A DNA stretch of 64,000 nt from Colwellia sp. MB3u-45. Its GTDB lineage: Bacteria; Pseudomonadota; Gammaproteobacteria; Enterobacterales; Alteromonadaceae. The stretch lies in assembly GCF_014077005.1 (NCBI RefSeq), contig NZ_JACGVC010000046.1, positions 62,001-126,000 of the forward strand. The letters run 5' to 3'. Each line of letters opens with the position of its first letter. Position 1 is the stretch's first letter. The notes below the pieces were generated by a model that was not told where the DNA came from, did no database searches, and saw nothing but the letters and a program-made list of their open reading frames with translations. Below are positions 5,088 through 57,969 of the stretch, one piece after another. The translations under genes were made by a program, and so were the position numbers.

Positions 5088-5972
5088 TTAAATAATATAA
5101 ACGAACACGAACAGTATTACCCACACTACATCAACAAAATGCCAATACCAACTCGCGGCTTGAAAGGCAAAATGGTTTTTCGGCGTAAAATGCCCCTTAA
5201 ATACTCGAATAAGCATCACAAACAGCATAATAGTCCCTAAGGTCACATGCATACCGTGAAAGCCTGTCAGCAAATAAAAGGTATTGCCATAAATGCCACT
5301 GTCTAAATACAATTTCATTTCGTCGGCATAACCATGGGCGTATTCTAAGCCTTGGCAAAACAAAAACACCACACCTAGCACAACGGTCAGCCCTAACCAA
5401 AATTTCAATAAACCACGTTTATTCTGCTCTAACGAAACATGAGCAAAATGGGCAGTAATTGATGAAGTTAACAACAAAATAGTGTTAATTAATGGCAAGC
5501 CATACCAACCCATAGCAGTAGTTTCAGTACCGTCTGGCGTTTTAATTAATGGCCAAGTCGCGGTAAATTCAGGCCATAAAATTATTGCCGTTGCGGCATT
5601 ATTTCCGGCACCATCAAGCCAGGGCACTGAAAAAGTACGGGCGTAAAGTAAGGCGCCAAAAAAAGCGGCAAAAAACATCACTTCTGAAAAAATAAACCAA
5701 CTCATACCTTGGCGGAATGAATTGTCCATTTGGTGACTATATTTTCCTGACATTGACTCGGTAATAACATTGTTAAACCAACCAAACATCATATAAATAA
5801 TCAAGGCAATACCCGCCAGCAATACCCAGCCGCCGCCTGCATTTTCAGGGTTATTCAAATTTGCTACATAATTTGCCGCACCTACGGCAATCAAAAACAA
5901 GGCAATAGCGCCCACTATTGGCCACTTGCTTTGCGCTGGTACGTAATAACTTTCGTATTCTTTTATTGTCAT
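5088..5972 (-). CDS. coxC: Cytochrome c oxidase subunit III
   Basis: A 294-residue seven-helix membrane protein (typical for bacterial subunit III). Hallmarks include SEVMFFAAFFGALLYAR, the TGFHGMHVTLGTIML segment and the C-terminal WYWHFVDVVWVILF. The start at 5972 is chosen because AGGGG lies eight bases upstream; a reading five codons longer lacks this. Subunit III stabilises the catalytic core of the aa3 oxidase. It follows the Cox11 gene by about 30 bases in the same operon. Confidence 0.95.
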   Translation of the reverse strand: MTIKEYESYYVPAQSKWPIVGAIALFLIAVGAANYVANLNNPENAGGGWVLLAGIALIIYMMFGWFNNVITESMSGKYSHQMDNSFRQGMSWFIFSEVMFFAAFFGALLYARTFSVPWLDGAGNNAATAIILWPEFTATWPLIKTPDGTETTAMGWYGLPLINTILLLTSSITAHFAHVSLEQNKRGLLKFWLGLTVVLGVVFLFCQGLEYAHGYADEMKLYLDSGIYGNTFYLLTGFHGMHVTLGTIMLFVMLIRVFKGHFTPKNHFAFQAASWYWHFVDVVWVILFVFVYII

Positions 5973-6002
5973 TGTTGTTCCCCTCATTTAAGTGCCAAGC
6001 AC

Positions 6003-14692: not shown

Positions 14693-15262
14693 TTAGATTT
14701 TGCCAACTAAATCTAATGATGGTGTTAATGTTTCTGCACCTGGCTGCCATGCTGCTGGACATACTTCACCGTCATGTTCAGCTACATATTGTGCCGCTTG
14801 AATTTTGCGCACTAGCTCTTTTGCTGAACGGCCTATACCTAGATCATGTATCTCAGCAATTTTAATTTCGCCTTCAGGGTTGATTACAAACGTGCCACGT
14901 AATGCTAATCCGTCGTCTTCAATCATGACACCGAAGTTGCGCGTAATTTTGCCTGTTGGATCACCAATCATTGGATAGGTAATTTTGCCAATAGTGTCTG
15001 AACTGCCGTGCCAAGCTTTATGGGTAAAATGTGTGTCGGTTGATACTGAGTAAACTTCAACGCCCATTTCTTGTAGTTGTGCATAATGGTCAGCCATATC
15101 GCCTAACTCTGTTGGACAAACAAAAGTAAAGTCAGCTGGATAAAAGAAAAATACTGCCCATTTTCCTGCAACATCAGCTTCTGAAACCTCGACAAATTCG
15201 CCTTTACTAAATGCTGTTGCGTTAAATGGTTGGATGGTTGAATTGATAATTGATTTATACAT
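14693..15262 (-). CDS. ahpC: Alkyl hydroperoxide reductase subunit C (peroxiredoxin)
   Basis: A 189-residue typical 2-Cys peroxiredoxin of the AhpC class. The peroxidatic Cys49 is in [12 protein letters not shown] and the resolving Cys near residue 168 is in GEVCPAAW. It reduces hydrogen peroxide, organic peroxides and peroxynitrite and is recharged by AhpF. The start at 15262 is chosen because GGAG lies eight bases upstream; a GTG four codons earlier would overlap that ribosome site. The gene is transcribed toward ahpF. Confidence 0.95.
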
Positions 15263-15547
15263 GTTTATCTCCACTTGTTTTAAAAATATGAGTACTTGTT
15301 AAGTTGGGACAATGATACGCCGGCATTTAAAATAGGAACAATCGTTTGAATTTATTATATCGATAGGCAAAAGCTATGATTGAATTGTAGAATGAAATGT
15401 AAAAAGAGAGGACATTCTTGCTGTGACTAGTTAACTTTATTTTATAGATGGCTAAAATTTAAATGTTGCAGGAAGTTATATGAAAAATAAGATTGCATAT
15501 TAATATCAGCTTATTTTCTTTAGCTATGATCAAAGCAAAAAAAAGAC

Positions 15548-15805
15548 AAAAAAAACGCCCCTCAATTGAGGAGCGTATAAAAATATAAAACACTAATAAA
15601 AACAAAACCGAGGGGAGAGTCTCTTGCTAAGTAAGAGTGCCATTACCCTGGTTAGTTCAATTTATATAAAAATAAACCTAAATCCCTCGACGAATATTTG
15701 GTGAAAATAAATGATTCACTACTCAAAGAACAAAAATTAATCGCTTTGCTCCTTGAGCACTTTCAATAACTAATAAGTCATCCGCCAAAATATAGGCAAA
15801 AAAAA
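15548..15805 (-). ncRNA. Candidate repeated small RNA, unit 1
   Basis: Possible minus-strand transcript ending at the terminator hairpin 15556-15575 followed by T8. It contains the CTCTT/AAGAG hairpin and the flanking CGAGGG/CCCTCG pair. No confident promoter was seen; TATATT occurs just after the preceding terminator but its spacing to a -35-like TTGAGG is short. No known RNA family was recognised. Confidence 0.4.
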
Positions 15806-16057
15806 CGCCCCTCAATTGAGGAGCGTATAAAAATATAAAAACACTAATAAAAACAAAACCGAGGGGGGAAATCTCTTGTTAAGTAAGAGTACTATTATTA
15901 TGGTTAGTTCAATTTAAATAAAAATAAACCTAAATCCCTCAACGAAGATTTGGTGAAAATAAATGATTCACTACTCAAAGAACAAAAATTAATCGCTTTG
16001 CTCCTTGAACACTTTCAATAACTAATAAGTCATCCGCCAAAATATAGGCAAAAAAAA
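15798..16057 (-). ncRNA. Candidate repeated small RNA, unit 2
   Basis: Same architecture as unit 1, ending at the hairpin 15806-15825. The outer pairing segment reads CCCTCA on the plus strand instead of CCCTCG, leaving a G-U pair in the RNA, so the pairing is kept. Confidence 0.4.
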
Positions 16058-16309
16058 CGCCCCTCAATTGAGGAGCGTATAAAAATATAAAAACACTAAT
16101 AAAAACATAACCGAGGGGGAAATCTCTTGTTAAGTAAGAGTGCTGTTATTATGGTTAGTTCAATTTAAATAAAAATAAACCTAAATCCCTCGACAAAAAT
16201 TTGGTGAAAATAAATAATCTCACAACTCAAGGAACAAAAATTAATCGCTTTGCTTCTTGATCACTTTCAATAACTAATAAGTCATCCGCCAAAATATAGG
16301 CAAAAAAAA
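16051..16309 (-). ncRNA. Candidate repeated small RNA, unit 3
   Basis: Same architecture, ending at the hairpin 16058-16077. It differs from units 1 and 2 mainly in the promoter-side half (for example ATAATCTCACAACTC), while the terminator-side 70 bases are nearly unchanged. Confidence 0.4.
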
Positions 16310-16560
16310 CGCCCCTCAATTGAGGAGCGTATAAAAATATAAAAACACTAATAAAAACAAAACCGAGGGGAAATCTCTTGTTAAGTAAGAGTGCTATTAT
16401 TATGGTTAGTTCAATTTAAATAAAAATAAATCTAAATCCCTCGACAAAAATTTGGCGAAAATAAATAATTTCACTACTCAAGGAACAAAAATTAATTTTT
16501 TTGCTCGTTGATCACTTTCAATAACTAATAAGTCATCCGCCAAAATATAGGCAAAAAAAA
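16302..16560 (-). ncRNA. Candidate repeated small RNA, unit 4
   Basis: Same architecture, ending at the hairpin 16310-16329. The promoter-side half has substitutions around TTTTTTTGCTCGTTGATC; the CTCTT/AAGAG hairpin and the terminator are retained. Confidence 0.4.
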
Positions 16561-16650
16561 CGCTCCTCAATTGAGGAGCGTATAAAAATATAAAAACACT
16601 AATAAAAACAAAACCGAGGGGAGAATCTCTTGCTAAGTAAGAGTAACTTT
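16553..16650 (-). terminator. Array copy 5, terminator-proximal part only
   Basis: Palindrome 16561-16580 is perfect here because one base change restores full pairing. It carries the CTCTTGC/AAGAG hairpin but diverges beyond about 16645. Being 180 bases after the stop of the 16761-17180 gene, it would terminate that gene's transcript. The array may therefore have grown from this 3' end. Confidence 0.6.
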
Positions 16651-16760
16651 ATAGTGCTTAGTTCAACTTTATTGACAAATAAATTTCATCAATAATAAAT
16701 CCTCTCACAACACCTTGATTTTATTTAATTAAAATGACTTAATCCAAATAAAAAATAATT

Positions 16761-17180
16761 TTATATCTGTGTAAGTTGCTGCCTATCAGCAATTAAATTA
16801 AGTATCTTGGACAGTTTTTTAGCAAGGTAGCCCGACAATAGTTTCGGCTGTTGGCGTATTAATTCAGATTCCGCTGCTGTAATAGCAACATGACAATCTA
16901 TTAACTTGTTGTTTGAGCTCAGCAACAAAACGTCATCTGCAAACGTTTCTACTTCAACATTCGGTGCTTGTTTTGCTACATTGCCAAATTCGTTAATCGC
17001 GACAAGATAAAAATTGATCTGTAAAATATCTGCTTCATCGCCATACCAATTCGCCGTCATGGTATGAAAATTTAACTGCGCTTCGAGTTTATTACTAATG
17101 GCGGCAATATTTTTTATTTCGGCCACTAGGTCATCACTCACCTGAATAGAAATTGGCAAGGTTTCAGTCATAATATCCAT
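16761..17180 (-). CDS. Hypothetical protein, 139 residues
   Basis: A soluble-looking acidic protein with no signal peptide. It starts MDIMTETLPISIQVSDDL and has alternating short strands followed by a helical C-terminus (ESELIRQQPKLLSGYLAKKLSKILNLI). The ATG at 17180 is preferred over one three codons later because AAGG lies about eleven bases ahead. I do not recognise the family. It is transcribed directly into the tandem terminator array, so it may share transcripts with the first copy. Confidence 0.65.
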   Translation of the reverse strand: MDIMTETLPISIQVSDDLVAEIKNIAAISNKLEAQLNFHTMTANWYGDEADILQINFYLVAINEFGNVAKQAPNVEVETFADDVLLLSSNNKLIDCHVAITAAESELIRQQPKLLSGYLAKKLSKILNLIADRQQLTQI

Positions 17181-57656: not shown

Positions 57657-57969
57657 GGCTAGGTAACTGGCCTAAAAGGCTTTGCATAAGAGTGGTTTAT
57701 TTCAACTGATAGGCGAGCAATGATGTCGTGGCGTGGGAGCAATGATGTCGTGGCGTGGGAGCCATAAATGGCTAAGAGCGGCCTGTACATGGTCACTCTT
57801 TCAGAACCATGTGGTCACGACATTGCTGACAAGGAGGTCGGTACTTAGTTTTTGTCTGGAACAAAAAACTGACCCTACTTAAAGTACAACGTGACTTATT
57901 AGGTTGTCATGTCAATATAATCAGTTGAGTACTGTATTGCTCAACTGGCTATTTTTATTCTTCTGACTT
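57657..57969. other. Gap between msrA and engB with repeats
   Basis: About 310 bases. It contains a 22-bp tandem duplication at 57716-57759, a GTGGTCACGACATTG segment related to it in inverse form, and a hairpin CAGTTGAG/CTCAACTG near 57920-57948. No gene. Spot 42 RNA often lies next to engB in other gammaproteobacteria, but nothing here resembles it. Confidence 0.45.
57716..57759 (+). repeat. 22-bp tandem duplication
   Basis: Two exact copies of AGCAATGATGTCGTGGCGTG followed by GG, at 57716 and 57738, in the non-coding gap between converging msrA and engB. Confidence 0.8.

Follow-up and report, generated by a model that had tools for sequence, protein, structure and literature searches.

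What is a tandem run of about 250-bp non-coding units, each closed on the minus strand by an intrinsic terminator, doing upstream of ahpC in Colwellia sp. MB3u-45? The original prediction, made on the 64,000-nucleotide stretch of DNA analysed here (the window), offered two readings, tandem small-RNA genes or amplified 3' ends. The former stands, every unit having a promoter element and a terminator of its own, while the latter is not supported. We consider it probable that the units are five tandem sigma-E small-RNA genes whose products repress the mRNAs of TonB-dependent receptors.

Layout of the array and its promoter elements

The five palindromes are found at 15545, 15795, 16047, 16299 and 16550, giving the predicted spacings of 250, 252, 252 and 251 bp, and eight T on the minus strand end each of them, as claimed. 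The units are indeed near-identical: their promoter and RNA parts share 89.5–97.4% pairwise identity and the four spacers 90.6–97.1%. Tandem Repeats Finder delimits the array to 15536-16671 (period 252, 4.5 copies, 93% matches) with a score of 1912, the top of its 11 rows for the window; a perfect 22-bp tandem repeat of 2.2 copies also lies at window positions 57715-57762. Gene calls and NCBIfam agree with the predicted position between a gene for a hypothetical protein of 139 amino acids (16761..17180, minus strand) and ahpC (14693-15274, minus strand, TIGR03137). The statement that no coding frame crosses the units needs one correction: among frames of at least 40 codons with ATG, GTG or TTG starts, a 48-codon TTG frame (15459-15605, minus strand) spans the first terminator, and there is no other.

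Each repeat unit comprises a promoter and RNA stretch of 113-115 bp followed by a spacer of 137-138 bp. The four spacers (15661-15797, 15913-16049, 16164-16301 and 16415-16552) were duplicated along with the candidate genes; because no spacer copy lies ahead of the furthest-upstream copy (16553-16666), the duplicated block is the gene plus its downstream spacer. Copy 5, the first in the direction of transcription, carries a sigma-E-type promoter at 16638..16666 (TTGAACT at 16666-16660, TCTTA at 16642-16638) and a candidate small RNA of about 81 nt at 16553..16633, delimited by alignment and fold, with a predicted 5' end and a 3' end at the U run of the terminator. The other promoters, located by motif scan and alignment, lie on the same minus strand at 16386..16414 (copy 4), 16135..16163 (copy 3), 15884..15912 (copy 2) and 15632..15660 (copy 1). 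The corresponding RNAs, placed by alignment and covariance model, occupy 16302..16381 (copy 4; 125.1 bits, the copy itself being in the model-building set), 16050..16130 (copy 3), 15798..15879 (copy 2) and 15548..15627 (copy 1, the last in the direction of transcription).

The promoter element, GAACT-N17-TCNNA, has five matches in the 64-kb window, one per unit and none elsewhere. The sigma-E motifs quoted in passages of the published work are GGAACTTTT / GTCAAA (PMC1804206) and GGAACTT / TCAAA (PMC4890791). Against these, the -35 box of the array is a good fit, and its -10 box fits TCNNA, as that of rpoE does, and not TCAAA itself: TCTTA and TCAAA differ in two of their five positions, and the rpoE element deviates too. 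In all 11 genomes examined, rpoE is preceded by a similarly built and spaced element, which reads GAACTT-N16-TCCTACTT in ten and TCGTACTT in one, with TCCTA or TCGTA as the -10.

The sigma-E/RseA/RseB system itself is present in the genome. A single match to the RpoE model is found at E<=1e-20; this rpoE clears the NCBIfam cut-off, and downstream of it lie rseA and rseB, which score above the cut-offs of their Pfam models and below the curated cut-offs of their NCBIfam models. Taken alone, the motif is weak, since GAACTT-N16-TCNNAC gives 5 matches genome-wide (rpoE and a second RNA locus among them) against 14 for the reversed control. Other ECF sigma factors likewise use GAAC-type boxes. Taken together, the promoter geometry and the likeness to the rpoE element suggest that the array is sigma-E-dependent.

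Conservation and structure of the RNA

The original prediction named absence of the unit from related genomes as evidence against it; on searching, the unit was present in all 16 same-genus genomes. A search with a single unit matched 24 of 60 genomes (its own included) at E<=0.01, the matches outside the genus being short and weak. The conserved part corresponds to query positions ~115-252, that is promoter plus RNA, and outside the nearest relative it is nearly all that is conserved: pieces of the spacer were matched only in that relative (G012), in G008 (30 bp) and, at another place, in G004 (25 bp).

Copies were collected over the fetched loci with a promoter regular expression and a terminator check, which gave 48 matches, 44 of which were aligned. 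The four dropped matches are in L036, L037, L041 and L048 (minus strand); three of them overlap open frames of 350, 782 and 239 codons, and that of L048 overlaps one of 75 only. The 3' ends of two kept copies, in L047 and in L031 (at 8836), were set by hand. Forty-one of the 44 copies lie at or within 3 kb of the array locus in 17 genomes, with 1-5 copies per genome and 1-4 in the same-genus relatives; of the other three, two are in G019, which belongs to another genus, and one is at a second own-genome locus. All 44 aligned copies share TGAACT and TC..A unchanged, with a variable stretch between the boxes; the copies had been collected by the GAACT / TC..A pattern, and a pattern-free nhmmer search found the same arrays (45 matches in the same loci, window included).

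The association between promoter and RNA was also seen with a 21-mer taken from the RNA core of the relatives, chosen without regard to the promoter and scanned through named genomes. Eighty of the 87 stretches that matched were used and gave 105 matches, 8 of them too close to an edge, leaving 97 testable. A promoter lies at most 60 bp upstream at 96 of these 97 sites, and a run of six T at most 89 bp past the 21-mer at all 97. Among these 80 of 87 stretches the named genera are Colwellia, Cognaticolwellia, Pseudocolwellia, Thalassotalea, Thalassomonas and Litorilituus, all six belonging to Colwelliaceae, and some stretches are labelled only Alteromonadaceae, Colwelliaceae or Gammaproteobacteria.

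Two helices were considered in the alignment of 44 sequences. For a candidate 5' stem-loop, CTCTT/AAGAG (CTCTTACTTAGCAAGAG), none of the five pairs is changed on both sides, the two inner pairs are lost in 5 and 9 sequences, pairing fails in 16 of 219 cells, and the helix overlaps the -10 element; this stem-loop was rejected. In the terminator helix, 5 of 9 pairs are changed on both sides and 95% of cells are paired, although the terminator sequence differs in three rows (two of L048, one of L079), which align poorly there. In a control with slid partners, 46-73% of cells pair in both helices, versus 94%. Since covariation is absent from the 5' helix and present in the terminator, the CTCTT/AAGAG region more plausibly represents the -10 region and transcription start, and the terminator a real RNA structure. 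Judged from promoter geometry, the RNA would start near AAGAGA and be about 80 nt long. For copy 5, the fold of the predicted 81-nt RNA has a z-score of -3.6, and none of 200 shuffles folds equally well. In the array RNA, the C-rich part and UUAGUGUUU are ~16 nt apart. The features consistent with Hfq-dependence are limited to the U-rich body and the U8 tail.

The gene context bears on two further explanations of the array. A copy lies directly downstream of the gene for the 139-residue protein, on the same strand, in 16/16 same-genus relatives, as would be expected if the units were amplified 3' ends, that is repeated terminators of this gene or of the ahpC neighbourhood without RNA function. 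We judge this very improbable, given that every copy has a conserved promoter, that the RNA body is conserved as well up to the terminator, and that relatives occur at loci without that gene; moreover, neutral repeats would not hold an invariant core while the spacer is lost. It is no less improbable, and perhaps slightly more so, that OxyR drives the array, making it an analogue of OxyS. The genes oxyR, ahpF and ahpC do adjoin the array, but ahpC is in the fetched neighbourhood of only 8 of 16 relatives (some loci stop at contig ends), and the conserved promoter matches that of rpoE. An ATAG...CTAT stretch at ~15360-15400, upstream of ahpC, resembles an OxyR site, which presumably fits the oxyR-ahpF-ahpC neighbourhood.

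The 139-residue protein is 53-95% identical across the 16 same-genus genomes. Searches against Pfam (E<=0.1), NCBIfam (E<=0.001) and PDB sequences (E<=1) gave no match, and its predicted model (mean pLDDT 82) had no Foldseek match at E<=0.001; for lack of a database match we propose no function. The gene probably stands outside the small-RNA mechanism.

A wider family and its relation to known small RNAs

A covariance model built from promoter plus RNA found matches in 92 of 395 sampled genomes of the family at E<=0.001 (18 of 52 genera, the genus's 17 included) and, at E<=0.01, in 13 genomes of an order-wide sample of 394. By comparison, the best background score was 19.8 bits across 260 kb taken from other loci of two genomes, while 47 of the 62 matches in one search score at least 50 bits. 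When 16 genomes of the order sample without a match were searched again with laxer filters, two now gave E<0.01; the genome counts of the model are therefore lower bounds. Clusters of 3 to 6 copies occur in several genomes, and these copy numbers too are lower bounds, since draft contigs (G385:C2, G385:C16, G226:C45, G226:C57, G426:C96) end or begin in or beside arrays. RNA relatives are also found at other loci, alone or clustered, where the gene for the 139-residue protein is missing, and they contain the contiguous core UUCCCUUAGUGUUUCAUG.

In the own genome, a second locus holds one copy on the minus strand (L207:5310-5414; G000:C44:579309-579413), adjoining a PAS-GGDEF gene and a gene for an M90 peptidase (MtfA-like). 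Relatives have such a locus too (L218, L219), with four tandem copies in G014. A second RNA type, CCUCCCUGGACUGCUUUC, lies beside gshA. Its core is CCTCCCTGGACTGCTTTC, and the own-genome version, CCTTCCTGG, is located at L375:1353-1452 on the plus strand behind a sigma-E-type promoter with GAACC replacing GAACT; further type-2 RNAs with a sigma-E-type promoter beside gshA are found in L372, L373 and L374, at L211:7652-7754 and at L224:7676-7777. Seven family genes are thus seen in the own genome: five in the array, one at the second locus and one beside gshA. Outside the genus, gshA, a flanking SLT_4 gene or both lie beside the RNA in 14 of 26 genomes checked and not in the other 12, many of the loci being only ~3 kb long and one of the 12 resting on a weak match.

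The original prediction recognised no known RNA family, and Rfam likewise gives no match in the window at gathering thresholds. With open thresholds, VrrA (RF01456) is the first Rfam name on 5/5 units, at 23.9-29.6 bits, short of the gathering score of 50 bits. We did not take this sub-threshold match as kinship, because unrelated families score as well or better on kindred RNAs (SR6, E 0.0043; anti-hemB, E 1.8e-4); the similarity may reflect the composition of terminator and U run. Sigma-E control is common to the array RNA and to VrrA of Vibrio, which represses ompA, whereas the length of VrrA, stated as 140 nt in a passage of PMC2628432, differs from the ~80 nt of the array RNA.

The likeness to MicA, a sigma-E-dependent RNA of enterobacteria, includes a sigma-E-type promoter, a length of ~70-80 nt, a terminator with a U run and a CCCU core in the 5' half, a core that MicA also has. 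The array RNA differs in its five tandem copies and in its predicted targets, which are receptors. The MicA model (RF00078) has no match on the window units at E<=10 and none on L216 and L374 at E<=5; on the gshA-side relative L211 it reaches 21.5 bits (E 0.74), below the gathering score of 41. The omp repressor RybB, which pairs through its 5' region, gives no Rfam match on the array at E<=10. According to passages of PMC1804206, RybB resembles the array RNA in its ~80 nt and its sigma-E promoter, and differs in its gene neighbourhood and in being encoded by a single gene. The same paper, in the part cited, places micA beside gshA, in the luxS-gshA interval. The window array adjoins the 139-residue protein gene and ahpC instead; the gshA neighbourhood of the relatives makes a distant common descent with MicA possible. 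By analogy, the array RNA would act like MicA, RybB and VrrA, yet it fits neither the MicA nor the VrrA model.

Tandem copies have parallels elsewhere. The passages available in PMC4132741 describe LhrC1-5 of Listeria as five-copy, envelope-stress-induced RNAs with UCCC motifs that act on a G-rich site before the start codon; they belong to a Gram-positive, are controlled by LisRK, and serve as an analogy only, with no sequence kinship claimed. Among marine relatives, Alteromonas has the tandem sibling RNAs Aln1a-c, with their own start sites, and Pseudoalteromonas has Pf1; these are Csr-type and proposed to bind CsrA, and the excerpts describing them mention no sigma-E promoter. Sibling small RNAs are reviewed in PMC4211561, as far as its excerpt goes. 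In the open-licence literature, judged by titles, the openings of abstracts and extracts of papers such as PMC5471319 and PMC9927453, no prior report of such a small RNA in Colwelliaceae was found, and the array RNA apparently represents an undescribed RNA family of this group.

Predicted targets and the proposed role of the array

We hypothesize the following mechanism. Each copy would be transcribed from its own sigma-E (RpoE) promoter on the minus strand and end at its own intrinsic terminator, yielding an RNA of ~80 nt. Under envelope stress, RseA would free sigma-E and all five copies would be made together. Pairing with the ribosome-binding regions of receptor mRNAs would involve the C-rich 5' part (AAGAGAUUCUCCCCUCGG) and, after it, a U-rich stretch (UUAUUAGUGUUUUUAU), and would block translation of TonB-dependent outer-membrane receptors, leaving fewer outer-membrane proteins to fold. 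Tandem copies would raise the output to a fast and strong pulse, as in the LhrC analogy, and the slight divergence between copies would possibly widen the range of targets.

The receptors were collected with the TonB receptor barrel model, which has 35 matches in the own genome, 30 of them fetched for pairing tests. A single rule, and not annotation, set the start sites of all genes, pairing energies were computed without target structure, and the controls were 51 window genes and, separately, 69 flanking genes. With the 5' part of the array RNA, pairing is stronger at receptor starts than at controls, and none of 200 shuffled seeds reaches an equal difference from either control set. With the seed of the second-locus RNA the receptor excess likewise lies beyond all 200 shuffles, and with the type-2 core seed it was matched by 1 of 200 in one comparison. 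At least one receptor, in L184, has its real start beyond the fetched locus and was counted among the window controls; it is thus miscounted on both sides, which works against the excess. An initial duplex test with a single 25-nt seed reached only p 0.02 for receptors and showed no effect at Porin_4 loci; the shuffle tests are stronger. For each of the two RNAs (locus A, locus B), receptors make up 10 of the best 15 duplexes while accounting for 30 of the 148 genes tested. At the L164 receptor, UAUUAGUGUUU pairs with AAACACUAAUA without mismatch, and CUCCC pairs with GGGAG; at the L180 receptor, the second-locus RNA pairs on either side of a two-base internal loop.

The excess is accompanied by a short word. 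GGGA at -20 to -4 occurs in 13/30 receptors versus 8/118 other genes of the own genome (p 6e-6), or in 11/28 without two near-duplicate receptors, the receptors being paralogues; AGGA, GGAG and GAGG give no comparable receptor contrast in this genome. The RNA-bearing genome G266 has GGGA in 12/29 receptors versus 1/48 others. The RNA-minus contrast consists of one genome of another genus, G065, which has no model match at E<=1 and in which GGGA occurs in 3/30 receptors versus 0/34 others (p 0.10). Across receptors, the two RNA-bearing genomes and this single genome differ at 25/59 versus 3/30 (p 0.0017). In G065, one of four seeds (locus B) is still beyond 100/100 shuffles; its effect is smaller there than in the own genome. 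As the pairings were computed without target structure and the receptors are paralogous, we grade it as no more than likely that the array RNAs pair with TonB-receptor mRNAs and turn them down.

The array could also consist of sigma-E tandem small RNAs with other main targets, such as porins, OmpA, lipoproteins or metabolic genes of the COX3 kind, which we regard as unlikely. Known sigma-E RNAs do act on porins and OmpA, as described in passages of PMC2628432 and PMC1804206. A COX3 gene (PF00510) in the window carries GAGGGGA just ahead of its start (5970-5985, minus strand), complementary to the array RNA, and is a possible extra target. Against this, receptor leaders exceed controls with both of the genome's own seed types, and receptors hold the share of the best duplexes given above. 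Four long frames at three Porin_4 loci pair no better than controls, unlike known MicA and RybB targets. A genome scan for exact GAGGGGA...ATG gave 20 matches versus 21 for the reversed control, and among the matches listed, 7 have a nearby frame of at least 50 codons, none of these genes being a receptor and one being the COX3 gene. Csr RNAs carry repeated GGA loops; by eye these are absent from our alignment, whose conserved body is C- and U-rich. It is thus scarcely credible that the array RNAs titrate CsrA, another protein or another RNA, as proposed for Aln1a-c, even though tandem copies also occur among Csr-type RNAs, Aln1a-c being three in 404 bp in the passage given by PMC5864184.

Returning to tandem sigma-E RNAs that act on receptor mRNAs, we tentatively suggest, as a possibility somewhat short of an even chance, that in Colwelliaceae the envelope-stress response runs through this amplified set, which serves as a common off-switch for the whole TonB-receptor class and reads a GGGA address code at the starts of its members. 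If true, receptor start regions would have evolved towards a common G-rich word (GGGA), amounting to a class-wide post-transcriptional code.

It is well established in enterics and vibrios that sigma-E RNAs reduce the synthesis of outer-membrane proteins. A family without an Rfam match, as tested here, would carry this principle over to marine bacteria that often live in the cold and have many TonB receptors. Because its copy number varies between species, the family may offer a testable system for asking why small-RNA genes amplify and whether one ribosome-binding word, readable by an RNA, can serve an entire receptor class.
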